Part shown: positions 12,735-22,971 of the stretch, piece after piece
Layout: every line of letters begins with the position of its first letter
Numbering within the stretch: the first letter of the stretch is position 1
Source of the DNA: Lachnospiraceae bacterium
GTDB taxonomy: Bacteria; Bacillota; Clostridia; Lachnospirales; Lachnospiraceae
Length of the DNA: 64,000 bases
Direction of reading: 5' to 3'
Assembly (NCBI GenBank): GCA_900199595.1
Contig: FZRB01000006.1
Span: forward strand, 62,001-126,000
Made by a program: the position numbers and the translations under genes
The notes under the pieces: model-generated
Told to the model about the DNA's origin: nothing
Databases searched by the model: none
Seen by the model: the letters and a program-made list of their open reading frames with translations, nothing else

Positions 12735-13514
12735 TGGACACCGCCTTTCTTTTGGGCTTTTAGTCCATGACGTTCTCTCATAGATATACGTCCTTCTATT
12801 AATACATCGTATGAATTATGAACAATCCTATCCATTATGGCATCAGAGATTGGACTCTGACTATTCTGATCTGGATATATACGTTCATACCAGTCTTTTG
12901 GATCATACTGAGTGCAAAAAATGATTGAGTTACATTCACATCTGGATTCTATAATCTCTAGTAGATCATATGCTTCAGATGTTTCAAGTGGACGAATAAG
13001 CCATTCATCTAGTACTAACAGGTCTACCTTTTGATAACTTCGTATTGTCTTTTTGAATGTTCCACATCCACGTGAGACCTTTAGTTCATCAAGCAGTTCT
13101 GGAAGTCTTATATATCGAGTCTTAAAAAATTTACGACAGGCTGCATTTCCTAGAGCACAAGCGATATATGTTTTACCACTACCAGATGCTCCTTTTAAGG
13201 ATTATATGATGTCCTTCTGTAATGTATTTACAGGTTGAGTATCTAAGCATCTCGCTTTTGTCAAGCTTACGATCCTCGATGTATTCGATACCTTCAATAG
13301 TTGCACCTGGATTCGAGAAGTGTGCTGCCTTGATATATTTGGATAGTTTATTTGTCTGACGGCGATTCCATTCCGCATCAACCAGTAGACCGAATCGGTC
13401 TTCAAAACCAAGGCTCCTATATGACTCTGGATCATCAAGTTGATGAATCAGTTCATTTGCCATGGCAGTCATGTGCATAGATCTTAATGTATCAATAGTG
13501 CTCTGATTTATCAT
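12731..13514 (-). pseudogene. istB: istB ATP-binding transposition helper, frameshifted
   Basis: The first part (13514 to about 13200) gives a typical IstB N-terminus (STIDTLRSMHMTAMANEL, GFEDRFGLLVDAEWNRRQ). The Walker A region GASGSGKTYIACALG lies in another frame: CTTAAAAGGAGC needs a one-base skip, and without it a stop follows at once. Downstream of the shift the frame stays open through LLVLDEWLIRPL to a stop at 12731. IstB assists IstA through ATP-dependent target capture, so this copy is probably inactive unless the A-run is slippery. Its start overlaps the istA stop (ATGA). Confidence 0.8.
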
Positions 13515-15055
13515 GACTGTTCACCACCTCTCTGATAGTAGGAAGCACCTCGGGTAATACCATGACTGGTCGAAGTTGGTGAAACAGTGCTATTGCTAAG
13601 TTTATCCTGTCCATTCTTTAGAATGGTGGTTATGTTTCTTATGGTTGGAGTGCTGCTATATATAAGTGCTCGTTCACAGGCATCTTCAAGCCTTTTATGA
13701 CTATATCTATCAGCCAGCTTAGTCAGACTTGCACAGAACTTAAATCCTTGTTCCGGTTCTTTTCCTGATTCAAGGAAGAACTTGACTACCTGAATAGTGT
13801 TTGGCCCGATTGTCTCCGCCCACTTGGTGAATTCATCGGCACTGTATGATAGATACTTTCTATGTTTCATCGGCATATGTTCCAGTATAGTTATCGGATC
13901 ACGTTTTTGTATTCTTTCACGAGGATGAGAAGCGACCCTCGAACCATGGTAGAATACTTCTACCGTTTGCTTTGTCAATCTGACATCCACTTCTTCTCCG
14001 ATTAGATCGAAAGGGACGGAATATTTGTTTTTTCCGTCAGATATGAGATAATCAAGGGGAACCTTAGCAGTGGACCAGACTGCTGGTTCGTACGGGGTGA
14101 TAGGGAGTTGCTTCATGTAATCCTTTTCTTCATCGATATAGGCAGTGTAGCGACATCCCTCCCGTTTTTTAAATGGAGAGTGATTAAGCTCTTCAAGCTT
14201 TTCAGCTACAGCAGATTTAACCTCTTCGATAGAAAAGAATTTTCGATTTTGCAAAGCTGCTATCACCCAGGTGGTTGCAAACCTCACTGTCCCTTCAGCT
14301 AGACTTTTGTCCTTTGGACGTTCCACTCTGGCGGGCACAACAGCTGTATCATAGTATTCAGCCATTTCATAGTAGCTTTTATTAACTATAGTTTCGTATC
14401 TGGTGTTGGTTGTTATTCCAGTCTTAAGATTATCTGGTATAAGCAGACGAGTTACACCACCGAAATAACTGTATGCGTGTGCATGACATAATAGCCAGTT
14501 AGTTGACTTCATGTCATCACAAGCTTCAACATAAGAGTAGCAACTGCAAGGTAACACAGCTGCAAATACATAGGCATCGTATTCTTCTCCGGTTACAGAG
14601 TCGAAATAAGAGATGGTAGTTCCTGCCCAATCAACCTGCATAACGTCACCGGGTTTGTGATGTATTCTCATGGTTGCTTTTGTAAGCCTTGCCCAACGAC
14701 GATACTTCTCACAAAAAGTAGAATACATATATGGAGTATCTCCTGAAGCAATACATTCAGCACAGTATTCACTCCATAAAAGAGATAGATTAACTCCAGG
14801 TTTAGCTAATTCATTATGGATGTAACTATAATCCGGCTCCCTTCTCTTAGGATTGTTGGATGATTGATCTGGAAAAAGGAATTCTTTCAGATCAGCATTT
14901 GTAACCGTATCATCCAATGGCCATTGGATACCAACAGACTCCGCCATCTTTACAACATCTCTGATAGTGTTGCGCGAGTGGTGAAGTGATGCAGCTATTT
15001 CATGCTGCGTGTAATTGAGACTTGTTAGTCTCAAGATTTCTCGATAATTCACCAT
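13511..15055 (-). CDS. istA: IS21-family transposase IstA
   Basis: This 514-residue DDE-type transposase has an N-terminal HTH (YTQHEIAASLHHSRNTIRDV). A catalytic core follows, with VMQVDWAGTTISYFD for the first Asp, RLLIPDNLKTGIT for the second, and a Glu in VERPKDKSLAEGTVRF. Start 15055 is chosen because AGGAGG precedes it; an upstream in-frame ATG at 15106 lacks one. The frame looks intact, but the partner IstB is frameshifted, so the element is probably immobile by itself. It is unlike the second IstA (37710) in length and ends, so the two IS21 elements are different types. Confidence 0.88.
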   Translation of the reverse strand: MVNYREILRLTSLNYTQHEIAASLHHSRNTIRDVVKMAESVGIQWPLDDTVTNADLKEFLFPDQSSNNPKRREPDYSYIHNELAKPGVNLSLLWSEYCAECIASGDTPYMYSTFCEKYRRWARLTKATMRIHHKPGDVMQVDWAGTTISYFDSVTGEEYDAYVFAAVLPCSCYSYVEACDDMKSTNWLLCHAHAYSYFGGVTRLLIPDNLKTGITTNTRYETIVNKSYYEMAEYYDTAVVPARVERPKDKSLAEGTVRFATTWVIAALQNRKFFSIEEVKSAVAEKLEELNHSPFKKREGCRYTAYIDEEKDYMKQLPITPYEPAVWSTAKVPLDYLISDGKNKYSVPFDLIGEEVDVRLTKQTVEVFYHGSRVASHPRERIQKRDPITILEHMPMKHRKYLSYSADEFTKWAETIGPNTIQVVKFFLESGKEPEQGFKFCASLTKLADRYSHKRLEDACERALIYSSTPTIRNITTILKNGQDKLSNSTVSPTSTSHGITRGASYYQRGGEQS

Positions 15056-15236
15056 GATTATCGACCTCCTATAATTAGTAGTCACACAGATGTGTGCCAT
15101 ACTCATTATAGGTTATAAACGACAAGTGGGTCACCCTTGCATAAGGGTGGATCTATAATCCCATAGAAGTGGGTCTAAAATTCCGTACATATGGGATTAT
15201 TCATTCAGAATATACAGGAAAGTCAACGAAATTTTG

Positions 15237-15400: not shown

Positions 15401-15901
15401 TTATTCATCTATTATTTCTGGAGCAAGTGTGTCCCCAGCAGAATACTCAAAATTAGCTGAAGTCGCCATCTTAGGCAAAGCTTTTACAAAGTTGTCCGGG
15501 TTTGGGGTTTTGGGAACCGGAACAGATGATGCTTCAGGTAACTTAACAATTGATTTATTTGTAGTCGTTTTAGATGCAGAATTACTATGTGAAGAACGAT
15601 TGCTATGTGATGAATGATTGCTATGCGATGAATGATTAGAATGATTACTATGCGATGAATGCGATCCATGTGATGATGATGTGTGCGAAGAATGCGATCT
15701 GTGAGATGAATGCGACCTATGCGAAGAATGCGATCTATGCGCAGCATATACATCCATACCTAATATCATTGTCATTAACAAAACTGTTGAACCAATACAT
15801 ACAAGTTTATCACGAGGAATGCTTCCCTCTTCATCATTAATCAAATCAGTAACTGATTTTTTTATCTGGGGAAAAATACTCTTTTTTTCTTTATTTTCCA
15901 T
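15401..15901 (-). CDS. hxsA: His-Xaa-Ser repeat peptide precursor HxsA
   Basis: This 166-residue protein has a basic/acidic leader, a hydrophobic segment (LVCIGSTVLLMTMILGMDVY, ending at AA54) and then an almost pure His-x-Ser tract (about 55-108). The units are HRS, HSS, HGS, HSN and HTS. A Ser/Thr/Pro-rich tail ends in LAPEIIDE. The repeat and the neighbouring radical SAM pair identify it as HxsA, the predicted substrate of the Hxs maturases. The segment before the repeats could be a signal or prepilin-like anchor; AA54 is a plausible cleavage point. AAGGAG precedes the ATG. It is the last gene of a tightly overlapping operon. The final modified product is unknown for this family. Confidence 0.88.
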   Translation of the reverse strand: MENKEKKSIFPQIKKSVTDLINDEEGSIPRDKLVCIGSTVLLMTMILGMDVYAAHRSHSSHRSHSSHRSHSSHTSSSHGSHSSHSNHSNHSSHSNHSSHSNRSSHSNSASKTTTNKSIVKLPEASSVPVPKTPNPDNFVKALPKMATSANFEYSAGDTLAPEIIDE

Positions 15902-15922
15902 TTCTGAAATTCTCCTTCAATA

Positions 15923-16792
15923 TTAGTATAATTTTACACAATTTCCATTTTCCCACAAGGTTGTGTATTTTTTACCTTTTCTCGTAATATACTTTAATGT
16001 ACCATTGGGTTTATTATTCAAAAAAGTTCCTTTTAAAGATTTTCCCTTAGACTTCTTATCATAAAAGTAAGTTCCCTTACCATTCATTTTATCTTTTTTC
16101 CAATTACCTTTGTAATATGCTCCATTAGACCACTTATACTTTCCTGAACCAGATCGTTCACCTTTAACCCAATTCCCAGAATAGACATCTCCATTTTTAT
16201 ATTTCATGGTCCCTTTTCCATTTAACGTATTACCAGAATACTTTCCACTATATTTACAACCATTTTTATACTTTATAGTAACATGTCCTGTATACTTACC
16301 TTTTGATACTTTAAAAACATATACATTTTTATTATACTTATATGTAATTGTTCCTTTAACAAATGTGTCATAAGAAAACTCGCCTTTTATTACAACACCT
16401 TTTGAACTTGTGTATTTCCCTTTTCCATGTATGCAATCATCACTCCATTTGCCCTCATACACACTACCATTATCCCATTTAAATGTACCTTTCCCATTTC
16501 GAAGACCATCAACAAAAGAACCTTTATATGTACCTACTCCTTTATACTTATATGTGCCATTTCCATTCAAACTTCCATCCAACCATTCACCAGTGTATTT
16601 ATCACCATTGTAGAAATAGTATGGAACATCAGGAGAATAGACAGTGCCATCAACAGAGTCAGCCATAACAACATCAAACTTTAGCGTATTTCCAATTGTA
16701 AGGTCCAAAACAACAAAAACCGCTATTAATATAATACAAATCATTCTTTTAATTATTGAGCTGTCAATCCTAGTTTTTCTCATTTTACCCAC
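15923..16792 (-). CDS. MORN-repeat exported protein in the Hxs operon
   Basis: This 289-residue protein has one N-terminal membrane or signal segment (MICIILIAVFVVLDLTIGNT) and then about nine MORN units of roughly 23 residues, such as YKGSFVDGLRNGKGTFKW and YSGNWVKGERSGSGKYKW. MORN repeats form beta-hairpin ribbons that often bind lipids or proteins. It starts with GTG at 16792, 10 bp after GGAGG, and overlaps the hxsB stop. The outside-facing ribbon is placed between the maturase and the precursor genes, suggesting a role in anchoring or displaying the modified HxsA. That role is inferred; MORN proteins are not a standard Hxs component known to me. Confidence 0.75.
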   Translation of the reverse strand: MGKMRKTRIDSSIIKRMICIILIAVFVVLDLTIGNTLKFDVVMADSVDGTVYSPDVPYYFYNGDKYTGEWLDGSLNGNGTYKYKGVGTYKGSFVDGLRNGKGTFKWDNGSVYEGKWSDDCIHGKGKYTSSKGVVIKGEFSYDTFVKGTITYKYNKNVYVFKVSKGKYTGHVTIKYKNGCKYSGKYSGNTLNGKGTMKYKNGDVYSGNWVKGERSGSGKYKWSNGAYYKGNWKKDKMNGKGTYFYDKKSKGKSLKGTFLNNKPNGTLKYITRKGKKYTTLWENGNCVKLY

Positions 16793-18165
16793 GAATAAAA
16801 CACCTCCTCATATTTTGAATTTTGTAATTTTATAAAAATATAATCAAGCATTCCTTGAAAGATCTGACATCTATCATTAAATCTTTTTCTAGAAACAGCG
16901 TCTTTTTCTAATGCATAATTAATTACAGGACATGTGCCACAATATGGCTGGTATACACAATCACAACATCCTGGTAAGCTTTCTACTATACTATATCTAC
17001 AAACTGTTTTACACAACTTTGAGTCCATCAAGGAATTATAATCATCATCAAATAATGAACCCAAACAAAAAGAATCATCTCCCATCTCATAAAGCATACG
17101 TCCCTCATCACAAGTAAAAACATTACCATCATGATAATATGCTATCTGCCCAATAGCAGCACCACAAGGTGAACGAAGTTCCATATAATTTGTGCCTATT
17201 CCATTAAGTATTTTAGATAATAGAATAGCTGCATGACCTTCTACGAGATAATAACCATTTATATTAAGTTCAAGAATATAATCAATACATTTTTTATAAA
17301 ACTCTACAAACTCTTCAGGGGTATATCCAATCTCATTCCACTGATCAGAAGCAACACCTAAGGAAGTAAGCGGTCTGATAAAAACATTATGAAGTTGATT
17401 ATTTACATATTCATCAATTATTTCTTTAGAATATGCCAAGGAATATCTTGTAGTAGTTTGAATTGCACCAAATTGATAATTACAATCCTTTAGTTTTCGG
17501 ATATTTTTAAAAACTTTATCATATGATTGAACACCACCTGCCAAAGGTCTATTCTGATTATGAAGATCCTTTGGTCCATCAATTGAAACAGATATTGATA
17601 TATTGTTATCTATTATATATTTTAGTTTATCATCTGTAAGCATTGTTAAATTTGTAACTATGCTGTAGTTAATATTTTTTTTACCACGTTTTTGCTCTGC
17701 ATATTCAACAATAAACTTAATTATGTCAAAATTACTAAGCGGTTCACCTCCTTGAAACTCGAAATCCAGTGTTTGTTGAGGTGACTGAAGTGCTAAATCA
17801 ACTGCTTTCTTAGCTATTTCTTCAGACATCCGGTCATTACATTTTTCAACTGAACTTTGAGCCTGACAATAAACACATTGTCCATTACAATAATTTGTAA
17901 CTACAAAAATATGTAGACTAGTTGATGAAAAAACAAAACTCTTTCCTGCTCGTAAATTATGTTTGAATTTATCTAAATATGCTTCTACCGATGTAGAATA
18001 TAAAAAACCTTTAGCCTCAAGAGATTCATATAAAACATGATCAGAAGATATATTATTATTTATTAAATCTTTGAAATCTTCCTTAGTAAGATATTCATAT
18101 TCTCCAAAATCATTAGTTATCAGAATTTTATCTTCTAATCTTTTAAACTGAAATGGTGCTAACAT
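16780..18165 (-). CDS. hxsB: radical SAM maturase HxsB
   Basis: This 461-residue enzyme has the radical SAM cluster motif C93-x3-C97-x2-C100 (in TNYCNGQCVYCQAQ), a GGEPL motif (FEFQGGEPLSNF), and a SPASM-like cysteine-rich C-terminus (CGAAIGQI, FTCDEGRM, CRYS, CCDCVYQPYCGTCP) for auxiliary iron-sulfur clusters. It should install a radical-derived modification on the His-Xaa-Ser peptide HxsA, together with HxsC. The start at 18165 has GAGGCG ahead and overlaps the hxsC stop by a few bases, so expression is coupled. The chemistry of the Hxs maturases is not established. Confidence 0.88.
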   Translation of the reverse strand: MLAPFQFKRLEDKILITNDFGEYEYLTKEDFKDLINNNISSDHVLYESLEAKGFLYSTSVEAYLDKFKHNLRAGKSFVFSSTSLHIFVVTNYCNGQCVYCQAQSSVEKCNDRMSEEIAKKAVDLALQSPQQTLDFEFQGGEPLSNFDIIKFIVEYAEQKRGKKNINYSIVTNLTMLTDDKLKYIIDNNISISVSIDGPKDLHNQNRPLAGGVQSYDKVFKNIRKLKDCNYQFGAIQTTTRYSLAYSKEIIDEYVNNQLHNVFIRPLTSLGVASDQWNEIGYTPEEFVEFYKKCIDYILELNINGYYLVEGHAAILLSKILNGIGTNYMELRSPCGAAIGQIAYYHDGNVFTCDEGRMLYEMGDDSFCLGSLFDDDYNSLMDSKLCKTVCRYSIVESLPGCCDCVYQPYCGTCPVINYALEKDAVSRKRFNDRCQIFQGMLDYIFIKLQNSKYEEVFYSWVK

Positions 18166-19265
18166 ATTATCGCCTCGACATCATTTTCTAATAATCGGAA
18201 CGTTCCAAAGAACATTCCTCCACAAGAATCTTTCTTTATACACTTTTCACATTTATCCAAATATCTGATTTTACTTTCAGTAATACTGTGAGCACATAAT
18301 GGCCAATACTTTCTTGGAACACAGCATAATGGATAATTATATATCCCTGTATCTATTCCATGATATATTAATCTTTCAATTGGTTCTTCCAGAAATTTAA
18401 ATGAATCCTTATATGAAATCCAAACATCCTCCATATAATGTCTCGCACTTCCAAGCATCTCTAGGCCTATAAAATTTACCACATTTACTTTTGAAAATTC
18501 CTTACATATCTTTGTTACAAGTGGATCGATCTCATCAATATTCAGACGACTGACTACAATACGTATTTCAACTGAAATATCATTATTAATAAGATTACTG
18601 ATTGCTTTACAAGTTTGATCAAAACTACCTATAGCTCTTGTAATACTATCATGTCTAACTTTATTAGAAGCATGTAGCGGAATTGCAACAGTAATATTCT
18701 TAGGGGCCGATGATAAAAATGAAAATAAATATTCTTCATTAGATAATATTCTACCATTTGTAAGCAATAAATATTGTGTATTGGATAAATTATTCTTTAA
18801 AAAGTCAAACAGTACGAATATATCTTTTTTTAATAAAAACGGTTCTCCTCCAGTTATTGTAATATGTGGCGTATCTGATGGAATCTGCCTACAAATCTTT
18901 AAGAGAATATCTAAATCCATTATATCACTTATATTTCTACTTTTCTCACTGATCGGACACATAATACAACCGGAATTACACCTATTAGTAATAAATATTG
19001 CATTATCCATAGACGAAGAATCATAATAAAGATAAGCTTGTCCGTCATTAAATTCCAAAACACTATAATCTTCTATTGTACTAAATATATAATCTTCTTC
19101 GTCTGATAGTTTTACAGACCATTTTTCCGGTTCAAATATAAGTTTTTTATCATAGTGATATACAACTTGATAGTTCATATCTAGCATCATACTTAAAACT
19201 TCTTCACTATGTGTTAATGATGCTATATGATGACCATTATTATAATCAGAAACTTTCAAATTCAA
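18159..19265 (-). CDS. hxsC: radical SAM maturase HxsC
   Basis: This protein of about 368 residues has the radical SAM motif C-x3-C-x2-C in TNRCNSGCIMCPIS, the TGGEPF motif (ITITGGEPFLLKKD) and a C-terminal cysteine cluster (CCVPRKYWPLCAHS, CEKCIKKDSCGGMFFG). It is the paired partner of HxsB in the His-Xaa-Ser system. The start is a TTG at 19265, 8 bp after a GGGGG tract; an in-frame TTG at 19280 is also possible. The gene overlaps the end of the A24-type peptidase gene. HxsB and HxsC always occur together, suggesting two successive or cooperative steps on HxsA. Confidence 0.87.
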   Translation of the reverse strand: MNLKVSDYNNGHHIASLTHSEEVLSMMLDMNYQVVYHYDKKLIFEPEKWSVKLSDEEDYIFSTIEDYSVLEFNDGQAYLYYDSSSMDNAIFITNRCNSGCIMCPISEKSRNISDIMDLDILLKICRQIPSDTPHITITGGEPFLLKKDIFVLFDFLKNNLSNTQYLLLTNGRILSNEEYLFSFLSSAPKNITVAIPLHASNKVRHDSITRAIGSFDQTCKAISNLINNDISVEIRIVVSRLNIDEIDPLVTKICKEFSKVNVVNFIGLEMLGSARHYMEDVWISYKDSFKFLEEPIERLIYHGIDTGIYNYPLCCVPRKYWPLCAHSITESKIRYLDKCEKCIKKDSCGGMFFGTFRLLENDVEAIIC

Positions 19266-20286
19266 AATAATTTCCCCCAATTATTACAATCAAAGTTGCT
19301 AATGATAAAAATAGTGCAAATGGTATTTTTTTAACTATAGTTATATTATTGTATTTTTCATTCTGAGAACAAAAAATCAATATATCTTCTACTTCCTCTT
19401 GAGCCAACCTAGAATCTAACGATTCATCGGATAATCTACAAAATTTTAATTTTTTTTCATTAGCCAGCGAAATTGATGAAACTGTAGAAAGAATCATTCC
19501 TTTTTTTAATTCAGTATACTTAATCTCTTTATAATTATACTTTTGAACCATGGCACGTGTCATCAGTATAAATATAATTATTCCCCATGTAACATAAACT
19601 CTATAATCTGAAAACATTTCAAATGAAAATGCCCCAAGAATTAAATCAGCCAGTAAAAATGTGATCATAACACTTTTGTACTTTAAAATATCAAGTTTTC
19701 TAATCAAAACAATAAATCCGATATTTAATCCTACCTGAACCCAAACTGGAATCTGGTTTTGAAACAAAGCAGAATAAATAGTATCCGTTATATGGTTAAA
19801 AAACAAAATACACACATATATCTTTAAATAGTTCTTAAATTCTACTAATGAACTAAGTACAATAGATTTAGCTGAGCGTTTCTCTTTAATCATATGTACT
19901 AGTGATTCACCTATAAGAAATATATATCCAAATGAAAATGAAAATAATAGAACAATAAAAATGTAACTCAAATCATTTATACTCTTTAATACATATGAAT
20001 ATGGCATCCCTAAGATGATTACCGAAAACAGCTTAAAATCCCCTCCAGCCCATATTTTAAACATATATAAAAATATCGATATACCTATGGAAATCAATAC
20101 TAAAAGAATATACTTTGTAAGCTTTTCTGGTCTATCGATGAAAATTGAAACAAAATTTAAAACTATTAATGGTATACCTATAATCAATAATACTCTATTA
20201 TAGATTAACCCCTTTTTATAATCAGTATATATACTTATACTACATAATAAAATCAATAAAATAATGCTAAGCACTTCAAAAATCAT
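19246..20286 (-). CDS. A24 (prepilin-peptidase-like) membrane protease in the Hxs operon
   Basis: This polytopic membrane protein of about 346 residues keeps the two catalytic aspartates of the type IV prepilin peptidase family. They are SIYTDYKKGLIYNRV (Asp22 from this start) and KIWAGGDFKLF, the GxGD-like motif (Asp83). Spacing is normal for A24. The C-terminal half adds several further spans and a cytosolic segment not found in short archaeal or bacterial A24 enzymes. The start at 20286 (ATG) is preferred over a TTG at 20304. Since no pilin genes are near, its likely substrate is HxsA, whose hydrophobic segment lies directly before the His repeats. This is inference. Confidence 0.75.
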   Translation of the reverse strand: MIFEVLSIILLILLCSISIYTDYKKGLIYNRVLLIIGIPLIVLNFVSIFIDRPEKLTKYILLVLISIGISIFLYMFKIWAGGDFKLFSVIILGMPYSYVLKSINDLSYIFIVLLFSFSFGYIFLIGESLVHMIKEKRSAKSIVLSSLVEFKNYLKIYVCILFFNHITDTIYSALFQNQIPVWVQVGLNIGFIVLIRKLDILKYKSVMITFLLADLILGAFSFEMFSDYRVYVTWGIIIFILMTRAMVQKYNYKEIKYTELKKGMILSTVSSISLANEKKLKFCRLSDESLDSRLAQEEVEDILIFCSQNEKYNNITIVKKIPFALFLSLATLIVIIGGNYFEFESF

Positions 20287-20500
20287 GTTGTCTTGATACT
20301 CCAATCAAATAATTTTCAAATTCATTCATGGTAAGTATCATATCTTCAATACAGTCATTAAATGAACAAATCCAATATGATTCAGACTCAATAACACTAA
20401 TACTGCATATCTCTTTAAAAGCATCTTTAGTTGTTAAAAATGTATCACTTGAAAAAAGATCTTTAGATATTTTTAAATTGGGTAAATCGTTATTTCCCAT
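20276..20500 (-). CDS. small Hxs-operon protein, possibly a truncated HxsD-like protein
   Basis: This 74-residue acidic protein has no recognised family. Its end (TMNEFENYLIGVSRQHD) recalls the F-x-N-x-L segment of HxsD (KEFINAILIHETRKIV in the gene just upstream), so it may be a diverged, shortened HxsD paralog. The ATG at 20500 follows the HxsD stop by 4 bp with GAGG inside the hxsD end. The gene overlaps the A24 peptidase start. It could be a peptide-recognition chaperone like HxsD or PqqD; this is speculative. Confidence 0.5.
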   Translation of the reverse strand: MGNNDLPNLKISKDLFSSDTFLTTKDAFKEICSISVIESESYWICSFNDCIEDMILTMNEFENYLIGVSRQHDF

Positions 20501-20504
20501 ATCA

Positions 20505-20873
20505 TCATCCTCTATCGTCAAACCAATCAGTCAATATTTCATCTGCAGAATAACTATCAGTTGAATACATCTTTTCACTGGAATCTTCATAACCTTCGTC
20601 AATTAATGTAGAAGCCATAGCTCGAGCATATAACATCTCTCGAATTCGATTAGTCTTTTCAAAAACTATTTTTCTTGTTTCATGAATTAAAATAGCATTT
20701 ATAAATTCCTTTTCTGATAAATGATTATCATTAGTTTTGGAATCTAAATAAACAATATATTTTTCTGAAGTCGAATCAAGGTGAACATAATAATCATCAA
20801 TAAAATCATATGCAGCCTTAATTAATGACTCTTTTGAATATAATTCCTTTGAAAATTCAAAGCATTCACTCAT
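20505..20873 (-). CDS. hxsD: HxsD-like protein
   Basis: This 122-residue protein has the HxsD layout. An amphipathic opening (YSKESLIKAAYDFIDDYYVH) leads to a beta strand (KYIVYLDS) and then a helix EFINAILIHETRKIVFEKTN, followed by RIREMLYARAMAS. In the family this helix has the LLNDYxLRE-type sequence, so this member is diverged. Its role is unknown; a leader-peptide-binding partner for the radical SAM enzymes is the favoured view. The start at 20873 (AAAGGTG ahead) is preferred over an in-frame ATG at 20927. It is the first gene of the Hxs operon. Confidence 0.7.
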   Translation of the reverse strand: MSECFEFSKELYSKESLIKAAYDFIDDYYVHLDSTSEKYIVYLDSKTNDNHLSEKEFINAILIHETRKIVFEKTNRIREMLYARAMASTLIDEGYEDSSEKMYSTDSYSADEILTDWFDDRG

Positions 20874-21008
20874 ATAGACACCTTTCATACATATAATAAT
20901 ACTTCCAGTCAATAGTTCTTCATACATATATTAAAATGAAAACGCTTTCTTTTCGAATATTTCTTCAAAAAATTAATTTGTAATAATCCAGCAGATATAT
21001 TGCTTGCA

Positions 21009-21614
21009 TTAATGCCTTGAAAATGCACGGTCTATTCGTTTTAGTTCTTTTTTAGCTATAATACCTTTTGTTCTTACTAAATCAACTACATCACTTACTT
21101 GATATATTAACAGTTTATATCGTTCACTATTAATTTTTTTCTTGGCAATATTATATATTTCTATCAAATCTTCATTATCTTCTGATAATACAATAAGAAT
21201 CTCCATGAATAATGCCATCATGATAATATGTACATCGCCATAGCTCGCGCCACTATGTTTAATCTCAAACACATCCGAATTATCATCCAACGGAATCATT
21301 TTCATAGCTTTTCTTGGATTAGTTATCTGTTTTCTTTGAACAAATTCATTATATATTTGTATATATAACCCTTTATAATATTCTTTAAAATATTCTGTTT
21401 TAATAAATTCACAGTAATCAACTACTCTACATAATCCATCATTAATCAAGGTATTGATATACGAAAACATGCTTAACTCATAAATATATACATATGGATG
21501 AATCAATAATTCAAATTCTGATCCATTTATCAATGTACGAAAATCATCCACTTGATATTTCGGTCTTTTATTAAATTGTTCTAAAAAGCACGTATCTATT
21601 ATCGCTTTATTCAA
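21009..21614 (-). CDS. PIN-like ribonuclease domain protein
   Basis: This 201-residue protein has PIN-like acidic signposts: IIDTCFLEQ (Asp7), IYELSMF, GDVHIIMMALFM and LSEDNEDLI. PIN domains cleave RNA and serve as toxins. The start is a TTG at 21614 with AGGAG 7 bp ahead, overlapping the ImmA stop by 8 bp. It is the third gene of an XRE / ImmA-IrrE / PIN trio, an arrangement resembling regulated toxin modules in which a protease clears the repressor. The assignment is moderate since the overall similarity is low. Confidence 0.65.
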   Translation of the reverse strand: MNKAIIDTCFLEQFNKRPKYQVDDFRTLINGSEFELLIHPYVYIYELSMFSYINTLINDGLCRVVDYCEFIKTEYFKEYYKGLYIQIYNEFVQRKQITNPRKAMKMIPLDDNSDVFEIKHSGASYGDVHIIMMALFMEILIVLSEDNEDLIEIYNIAKKKINSERYKLLIYQVSDVVDLVRTKGIIAKKELKRIDRAFSRH

Positions 21615-22434
21615 AGTATTCTCCTGAAAACATTATTTGATCAGTAAGCTCAATCTCCTTAAGCTCAAAATCTTTTTTTATTTTTTCAATTAGTACTTTA
21701 TCTGTATTAGAATTATTTGAAGCCATTTCAATAAATGTTCTTAATCCTGATATAGTCTTAACTTCAGTATTTCCATTAATAATATAATTTTTATCTCTCT
21801 TCAAAAAATCTATATATTTTGAAAACTCATCTTTTTTTTCACTTAAATATCTGTCTGTTTCCATATTAATAGCATGTATTTCATTTAATCTTTTTCTCAC
21901 AGCATCAAAAGGAGACATAAAGTCATCCATAAGTTTAGAAATCAATATAAGAAGTTTTAATACAGAAACTTTTTTCGATAAAGATAATTCTTTAGCATAG
22001 TTTTTGGTATGCTCAATAAACTCTTTTCTTGGCATTACGAATTTTGCAGCAAATCTATCTGTTACCTTTTCTTCATAATCCTTGTCTTTAGCATCTAACT
22101 CTATACCTTTATCAAAAGCAATATTTATAACCTGTCCATATATGCCAAAAACATGTCCCAATTCATGTGCTGCAGTAAATATCTGTTGTTCAATCGTCTT
22201 ATCAGTATTAATGTATACAAAATCTTCTAGCTTATCTCCAACAAATCTCTTTATATGAAAACCACGATTATACTCATTTTTTAATGGATAGTATATTACA
22301 GTACATCTATTTTCTAGCAATTCAAATACATCATCTTTTATTATTGGCGAAAGATTGTTTTCAAATTTAATAGCTTCAACTATCTCTTGAATTATATCAA
22401 CAATTGTATCTGGCAAAATAATTTCTTTAGACAT
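21607..22434 (-). CDS. ImmA/IrrE-family metallopeptidase
   Basis: This 275-residue protein has the zinc protease motif HELGH in FTAAHELGHVFGIYG and the downstream acidic segment DYEEKVTDRFAAKFVMPRKE typical of ImmA/IrrE. Such proteases cleave XRE repressors to relieve gene repression after a signal. The XRE gene at 22492 is directly upstream, and the PIN-like gene downstream overlaps by 8 bp. AAGGAG precedes the ATG. A hairpin with a T-run (22453-22485) separates it from the XRE gene. Confidence 0.85.
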   Translation of the reverse strand: MSKEIILPDTIVDIIQEIVEAIKFENNLSPIIKDDVFELLENRCTVIYYPLKNEYNRGFHIKRFVGDKLEDFVYINTDKTIEQQIFTAAHELGHVFGIYGQVINIAFDKGIELDAKDKDYEEKVTDRFAAKFVMPRKEFIEHTKNYAKELSLSKKVSVLKLLILISKLMDDFMSPFDAVRKRLNEIHAINMETDRYLSEKKDEFSKYIDFLKRDKNYIINGNTEVKTISGLRTFIEMASNNSNTDKVLIEKIKKDFELKEIELTDQIMFSGEYFE

Positions 22435-22452
22435 AATGATTCTCCTTGTATG

Positions 22453-22485
22453 ACAAAAAGGCTATACACAATTATATGTATAGCC
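22453..22485 (-). terminator. internal terminator between XRE and ImmA genes
   Basis: GGCTATACA (22460-22468) pairs with TGTATAGCC (22477-22485), followed on the minus strand by TTTTTG. It lies in the 57-bp gap of the operon, so most transcripts may stop after the regulator gene, keeping the protease and toxin low. Confidence 0.65.
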
Positions 22486-22491
22486 CAATAA

Positions 22492-22824
22492 TTATATCAT
22501 TTGTTCTTTTAGCTCAATATACTCATCTATTAAATCTACTATTTTATACAAATGCTCTCTTTCAGTAAAACACTTATTATATTCAAGTTCTGGGAGCAAA
22601 TCATTCCCGTCAGGTTGGAAATATATTAATTTCTCAACTGAAATATCCAATTTTTCTGATATTTCTTCTAGTGCTCTCGGTGAAATAAAAAGTTTTCCCT
22701 CAATTATTCTCCTCAAATCACGAATTGAATATCCTATTTTTTGTGCAGCATCCTCTACCGATATCTTTCGATCTTTCAAGATAGAGTATATTCCCATACC
22801 AATATTTATTGATATTCTTTCCAT
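22492..22824 (-). CDS. XRE-family regulator of the ImmA/PIN module
   Basis: This protein of about 110 residues has an N-terminal helix-turn-helix (KISVEDAAQKIGYSIRDLRR, IIEGKLFISPRALEEISEKL). The start at 22824 has AGGGGG ahead and avoids a weak upstream ATG at 22860. It probably represses the module and is the likely target of the downstream ImmA-type protease. Confidence 0.75.
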   Translation of the reverse strand: MERISINIGMGIYSILKDRKISVEDAAQKIGYSIRDLRRIIEGKLFISPRALEEISEKLDISVEKLIYFQPDGNDLLPELEYNKCFTEREHLYKIVDLIDEYIELKEQMI

Positions 22825-22971
22825 ATAGTTACCCCCTAAAAAAAAACAAATATAATTCAAGTCTATGTAAGTAGATATTATACACTATTATATATTAAAT
22901 TATCAATTAGATTTTCATATACCAAGATTTATTCGAAAAATGTATTTTAAAATTCTACCTTTCAATCCGTG

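Follow-up and report, generated by a model that had tools for sequence, protein, structure and literature searches.

We analysed a 64,000-nucleotide stretch of DNA from a Lachnospiraceae bacterium (GenBank assembly GCA_900199595.1, contig FZRB01000006.1, positions 62,001 to 126,000), called the window below, which carries on its minus strand a His-Xaa-Ser (Hxs) peptide-modification operon that includes a gene for an A24 membrane peptidase. Comparison with other Hxs loci shows that A24 marks one branch of these systems, the one with an HxsA3-type precursor, and not Hxs in general, and that a gene for a MORN-repeat protein is an optional partner. The reading that we favour, and hold to be somewhat probable, is that of an HxsA3-type peptide-modification operon with an A24 protease dedicated to the HxsA3 leader. 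The HxsA3 and HxsD-like families were already known; what appears to be new here is that A24 marks the HxsA3 branch and is a candidate leader protease.

Fourteen HxsA3-type loci were compared, that of the window and L010, L011, L015 to L019, L021, L059 to L062 and L071. All 14 carry an A24 gene, 12 an HxsD-like gene (not found in L019 and L062) and ten a MORN gene (not found in L016, L018, L060 and L061). In the eight loci compared, whose HxsB shares 45–59% identity with the window copy, these genes recur and their order is mostly conserved; therefore the arrangement in the window is not due to chance. The controls were 29 loci with HxsB and without an HxsA3 precursor, from 17 plasmids, five genomes of the window's phylum, six viral contigs and one Leptospira phage. 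The plasmid loci were chosen for variety from 348 records, 317 of them Klebsiella plasmids with an HxsB relative; one control, L067, begins at a contig edge, and L042/L043 and L027/L072 are near relatives. A24 was found in none of the 29, including the five in genomes of the window's phylum, and MORN, searched with our own MORN profile only, in none either; one marginal match in L030 (expectation value, E, 0.036) was taken as chance and set aside, as it falls in a 106-residue open reading frame antisense to an annotated gene.

Because the A24 profile built here missed the second A24 protein of the window's own genome, the controls were rechecked with Pfam. No A24 was tallied among 17 open reading frames of at least 100 residues with at least three predicted helices, all of them no further than about 5 kb from HxsB, in the first 28 control loci; in the whole scan of 19 proteins two match A24, namely L062 and, by E-value, the scan's control protein L054. 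For L072 the listing holds no open reading frame with three or more helices. An earlier note on this DNA had let its proposal stand or fall with the presence of A24 and MORN genes in other Hxs loci of related genomes. They are present within the HxsA3 type and absent from the 29 others, and thus A24 is tied to one Hxs branch, in which MORN is optional. Among the controls, L025 (1-7488), from a Klebsiella plasmid, has its hxsDBC genes close to a mercury-resistance operon.

The HxsA3 precursor of the window (15401..15901, minus strand, as are the other features of the operon, 166 residues) starts with a leader of 26 residues (15824..15901) that ends in DEEG and would lie on the cytoplasmic side, with a likely A24 cut site after Gly-26. 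It continues with the core of a hydrophobic helix, identified by a hydropathy window (residues 33-47, 15761..15805), the sequence MDVYAA with a putative signal-peptidase-I-like V-x-A site (residues 49-54, 15740..15757) and a core of His-Xaa-Ser and also His-Xaa-Asn repeats (residues 55-107, 15581..15739). A leader-end motif, [DE]E[ED][GA], is found in 14 of 14 HxsA3 precursors (EEEG in L071, and with the Gly replaced by Ala in L062) and ahead of the core in 0 of 26 other Hxs precursors; the latter come from 26 of the 29 controls, among them L037 and L072, with L025, L067 and L068 lacking a usable precursor. After the motif come [NS][IV], a Lys that is invariant in the 13 aligned precursors and present in L071 as well, about 15 hydrophobic residues, and [VA]x[AG][AG]H. 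The leader is 20 to 32 residues long, and from the motif Gly to the first core His there are 29 residues in 13 of the 14 precursors and 30 in L062. In all 13 precursors measured the helix core ends 6-8 residues ahead of the first core His, and His-55, His-58, His-61, His-64, His-78 and His-81 are invariant in the 13 aligned. L019 and L062, the two loci in which an HxsD-like gene was not found, keep both the motif and A24, which argues that the motif does not serve the HxsD-like protein solely. Since this precursor design and A24 go together, action of the A24 protein on HxsA3 is well motivated. In L061 (8784-9479) the HxsA4 model NF038313 matches the HxsA3 leader and core with E 3.8e-6, below its cut-off, and the leader design may be shared by HxsA4.

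The stretch from motif to helix holds one or two basic residues, and Asp, Glu or Asn directly follow the helix; in our judgement these flanks would place the leader inside and the repeats outside. We propose that HxsB and HxsC, both radical S-adenosylmethionine (SAM) enzymes by family membership, together with HxsD and usually the HxsD-like partner, would act in the cytoplasm on the His-Xaa-Ser repeats of HxsA3 and modify them. The precursor would enter the membrane through its N-terminal helix in the orientation that the flanking charges suggest, and A24 would cut it on the cytoplasmic side, most likely after DEEG, freeing the leader in the manner of a prepilin peptidase. A next cut, by signal peptidase I at the [VA]x[AG] site that precedes them, may free the repeats; without it the helix would keep them tethered. 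Where present, the MORN protein would be exported as a partner, perhaps to retain the product at the cell wall.

How close does this precursor come to a prepilin? In class III signal peptides, as excerpts of PMC4471445 describe them, a hydrophilic leader of 6-26 residues with Gly at its end precedes a stretch of about 21 residues, most of them hydrophobic; Glu-5 is almost always present, though often missing in archaea, and cleavage by the prepilin peptidase takes place at the cytoplasmic face of the membrane. Class III-type leaders also occur on other extracellular proteins of archaea, according to an excerpt of PMC2910488. As in these signal peptides, the HxsA3 leader ends in Gly, or once in Ala, a few residues ahead of an N-terminal helix, and the operon's A24 domain has both Asp residues, as in the prepilin and class III peptidases PilD, TadV, FlaK, PibD and EppA. 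The window copy has other features expected of a type IV prepilin, namely a leader ending in Gly within the first 35 residues, a single helix at most 13 residues further on and a length of at most 350 residues. Over all 14 precursors the Gly (Ala in L062) stands at positions 20-32, the helix starts at most five residues later and the lengths are 154-239 residues; one helix is predicted in 13 of them and two in L016.

Several observations weigh against prepilin-like processing at this site. Unlike class III signal peptides, HxsA3 fails the Gram-positive prepilin rule, which an excerpt of PMC3244431 gives as [GAS], four uncharged residues and [DE], then 14 uncharged residues: none of the 14 precursors passes, and membership of HxsA3 among the type IV pilins was rejected on this ground. 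The six-residue motif of the rule occurs elsewhere in the first 80 residues in 6 of 14, in no case followed by 14 uncharged residues, and at the proposed site position +5 is acidic in the window copy alone and position +6 is Lys in 14 of 14. No Pfam pilin family was found on the nine HxsA3 N-termini scanned, which gave one weak match to a domain of unknown function. The leader up to the motif has a net negative charge in 14 of 14 (-1 to -7), contrary to a simple positive-inside reading, and the helix core of about 15 residues with its AxA-like end is like that of an ordinary Sec signal peptide. The earlier note had A24 cleaving the Hxs precursor; the co-occurrence of precursor design and peptidase speaks for this, but the site does not conform to the Gram-positive rule. 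A single T2SSE match, below cut-off, was seen in an AAA protein beside L019, pilus assembly genes not having been searched for systematically.

The helix core of about 15 residues would also fit a different course, which we regard as unlikely, in which the N-terminus of HxsA3 is an ordinary though long Sec signal peptide, signal peptidase I frees the repeats, the A24 protein does no more than clear the leftover signal peptide from the membrane, in the way of a GxGD-type signal-peptide peptidase, and DEEG is a docking site for the maturases. In its favour, [VA]x[AG] directly before the His repeats is present in 13 of 13 precursors and in L071 vs 3 of 26 others, and FlaK, whose fold the A24 protein weakly matches, belongs to the GxGD membrane proteases. 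However, Ala just ahead of the first core His is also a common feature of the other precursors, so that the site is partly confounded, and it would be unusual for an A24 gene that only clears up to be so strictly linked; the 29 other Hxs loci examined have no such gene. Both cuts, by A24 and by signal peptidase, may occur.

The A24 gene (19246..20304, with an ATG at 20286) encodes the GxGD membrane peptidase and a C-terminal domain. The protein passes the Pfam cut-off narrowly (PF01478, 27.2 bits, cut-off 26.5), though it keeps TD..K...N and AGGD.K, with Asp-22 and Asp-83, counted from ATG 20286, as catalytic residues. D22, N30, D83 and K85 are invariant in 13 aligned A24 proteins, whose identity to the window copy is 17-34%, and the L071 protein, outside this alignment, has TD and AGD.K. 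In Pfam, 11 of the 13 relatives match A24 at E 0.1 or better, with L062 below the cut-off. Two of the 13 have a weak match to the archaeal preflagellin peptidase model NF040695 (best E 0.0026), and among the 50 Foldseek rows shown FlaK (3s0x) has the highest probability (0.60, root-mean-square deviation 4.0), but at E 2.5; the operon A24 thus leans weakly to archaeal FlaK. It counts against the proposed role that unrelated proteins stand at the top of the Foldseek list, which has no match under E 0.001. A comparison with solved structures by sequence gave no match, and a profile comparison with the genome's other A24 protein aligned the TD..GD region at a probability of only 1.3%. Unlike in the prepilin peptidases, the C-terminal domain has only a faint Arc_PepC_II match, in one of the 13 (E 0.069).

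Could the A24 protein instead serve another substrate, a pilin elsewhere or the MORN protein, with the leader motif read solely by HxsB, HxsC or HxsD? The distance from motif to core is fixed, as might suit a recognition site for the maturases, and processing of HxsA3 by A24 is itself a prediction from sequence. But the window's own genome has another A24 protein above the Pfam cut-off elsewhere, so that the operon A24 need not serve a pilus; the other Hxs precursors pair with HxsB and HxsC without the motif; and MORN was not found in four of the 14 loci that keep A24, which makes it unlikely that the MORN protein is A24's only substrate. We consider this alternative quite improbable. Returning to HxsA3 as the substrate of A24, a bolder version would make it a hybrid of a prepilin and the precursor of a ribosomally synthesized and post-translationally modified peptide (RiPP): the acidic leader would guide radical SAM maturation, a dedicated FlaK-like A24 protein would cut, and the helix would anchor the modified His-Ser repeats or assemble them as a surface filament. 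This we regard as tentative and rather doubtful.

In a tree of 40 rows, from which L067, L071 and L072 were left out, the HxsB proteins of 13 HxsA3 loci form one clade with a support of 100/100; within the window's phylum its members span three families, and the others belong to two named metagenome genomes and to a viral contig. As far as tested, all 14 loci thus belong to one lineage or nearly so, and common descent may be all that links the motif to A24, which weakens the argument from their co-occurrence. Together with the dispensability of MORN (ten of 14), the single clade also suits the idea that A24 and MORN are passengers in an operon inherited as a block, with no role in the Hxs product. 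This we hold to be very improbable, because the catalytic residues of the 13 aligned A24 proteins are kept at such low identity and A24 is retained in L062 despite a rearranged gene order. L011, labelled Oscillospiraceae in its record, is placed among loci of the window's own family, a hint of transfer between families or of misbinning of this metagenome-derived genome.

The MORN-repeat protein (15923..16792; PF02493, 86.7 bits) has a hydrophobic N-terminus and six clear repeats: six stretches pass in Pfam and six fit a motif scan. An exported protein with nine MORN repeats had been expected; the hydrophobic N-terminus is there, from which we infer export, but the repeats confirmed are six. 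A possible link to the cell wall comes from the peptidoglycan-binding domain PG_binding_1, found in seven of eight long non-A3 precursors (at least 192 residues, chosen from the 26; L029 lacks it; the short ones of 84-117 residues were excluded) and in none of the four HxsA3 proteins scanned with Pfam (window, L016, L018 and L059). In L062 the domain is joined to the MORN repeats. Among loci without MORN, L016 has the HxsA3 protein with a second predicted helix, and the HxsA3 proteins of L018, L060 and L061 share a C-terminal stretch, YYIHYKD. These observations fit a shared theme in which the repeats would be held at the wall by different means. Surface display, the last step of the path drawn in the earlier note, is plausible in light of the PG_binding_1 domains.

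In the window the genes run on the minus strand from 20927 to 15401 in the order hxsD, HxsD-like, A24, hxsC, hxsB, MORN and hxsA3. Each of the five Hxs genes scores above its NCBIfam cut-off: hxsD (20505..20927; TIGR03976, 69.3 bits, cut-off 50), the HxsD-like gene (20276..20521, with a later ATG at 20500; NF038315, 60.4 bits, cut-off 41), the radical SAM maturase genes hxsC (18159..19280; TIGR03977, 291.9 bits, cut-off 267.9) and hxsB (16780..18165; TIGR03978, 523.3 bits, cut-off 370), and hxsA3 (NF038309, 109.2 bits, cut-off 65). For hxsD we took the longest open reading frame, from 20927, and the earlier note had chosen the ATG at 20873. The genes that it had named are borne out, where it had placed them, by NCBIfam and Pfam matches above cut-off. 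A His-Xaa-Ser precursor is present as it had said, but its family is HxsA3; classical HxsA was rejected, as TIGR03979 gives only 16.3 bits (cut-off 121.65). Likewise the HxsD-like protein has a separate HxsD beside it. Neighbouring genes overlap by 11 nucleotides (HxsD-like/A24), 35 (A24/HxsC, at a TTG start), 7 (HxsC/HxsB) and 13 (HxsB/MORN), and hxsA3 starts after a gap of 21 nucleotides behind MORN.

The maturases HxsB and HxsC and HxsD thus stand side by side, and a precursor with His-Xaa-Ser repeats adjoins. Like the HxsABCD system (TIGR03976-TIGR03979, with HxsA and HxsA2), the window operon has HxsB, HxsC and HxsD above cut-off and a core that starts HxSHxSH. It is unlike that system in having HxsA3 with leader and helix directly before the core, in the HxsD-like, A24 and MORN genes of its type, and in the precursor domains described above. 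HxsD is predicted as strand-helix-strand-strand-long helix (mean predicted local distance difference test score 80), and a fold search gave no PDB match under E 0.001, the best matches being weak and partly ferredoxin-like. The predicted fold appears to be unlike that of PqqD. The reading of HxsD as a PqqD-type peptide-recognition domain, or RiPP recognition element, finds no support in this model.

Just upstream of hxsD (21009-22860) lie a helix-turn-helix-like protein, an M78/IrrE-like protein (PF06114) and a small protein without a family match that we take, by reading, to resemble a PIN-type nuclease; a similar-looking cassette, judged by reading, stands beside the Hxs locus of L018 (2708-4530). 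Directly downstream of hxsA3 (13179-15106) are two transposition-type genes, IS21-like by our reading. In other HxsA3-type loci an XpaC-like gene (PF10112) follows hxsA3 in L011 (13314-15409), with a relative in L017, and TelA genes (PF05816) follow it in L015 (10448-13655); L059 and L060 have look-alikes of these downstream genes by reading. Kinase, FHA, AAA and DUF5050 genes stand beside the operon of L019 (1921-9731), and relatives of three of these neighbours beside that of L021 (4119-7808). The predicted viral contig L062 (2520-15859) has the order MORN-HxsA3-HxsD-A24-HxsC-HxsB, and its large neighbours are phage-like by reading.

The HxsA3 type is rare in the sampled genomes, scattered and stable in gene content. 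In the window's family, 4 of 299 genomes match the HxsA3 model. An HxsB with E 1e-70 or better was found in 4 of 392 genomes of the order and 2 of 398 of the phylum (the window's own genome is counted in all three samples), in 2 of 145, 3 of 150, 6 of 150, 2 of 98 and 1 of 146 relatives of five hits, and in 4 of 79 genomes of one genus; these samples overlap, and five genomes among the relatives carry the other Hxs type. Two further HxsA3-type loci came from GTDB contigs, one from viral contigs (L062) and one from a human-gut scaffold filed under phages (L071). The search of viral contigs yielded nine loci, with L069 and L070 (22-23% identity) left unused. A viral-contig scan with an A24 alignment and a plasmid search with one A24 protein returned no relative.

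The source cited for HxsB and HxsC as putative maturases is reportedly Haft and Basu. The two proteins are mentioned as such in the excerpt of PMC9062424, and hxs genes are merely listed in that of PMC8446631. Titles and opening lines of open-licence PubMed Central papers yielded nothing on the HxsA3 locus or its link to A24, although the free-text notes of NCBIfam, in which the precursor family is already named, may mention it. As far as these searches show, Hxs products are uncharacterised, and the processing and export of Hxs precursors are undescribed.

Because the protease goes with a single precursor type, and a precise candidate cut site can be named along with its two catalytic residues, Hxs processing becomes simple to test. 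If the proposed role is true, it would join radical SAM peptide chemistry to type IV pilin processing, as a new route of leader removal. The bolder hybrid reading would, to our knowledge, give the first example of a RiPP leader being removed by a prepilin-type peptidase. For the Hxs family, a branch with its own membrane protease suggests a route by which modified peptides rich in His and Ser may be released or displayed.

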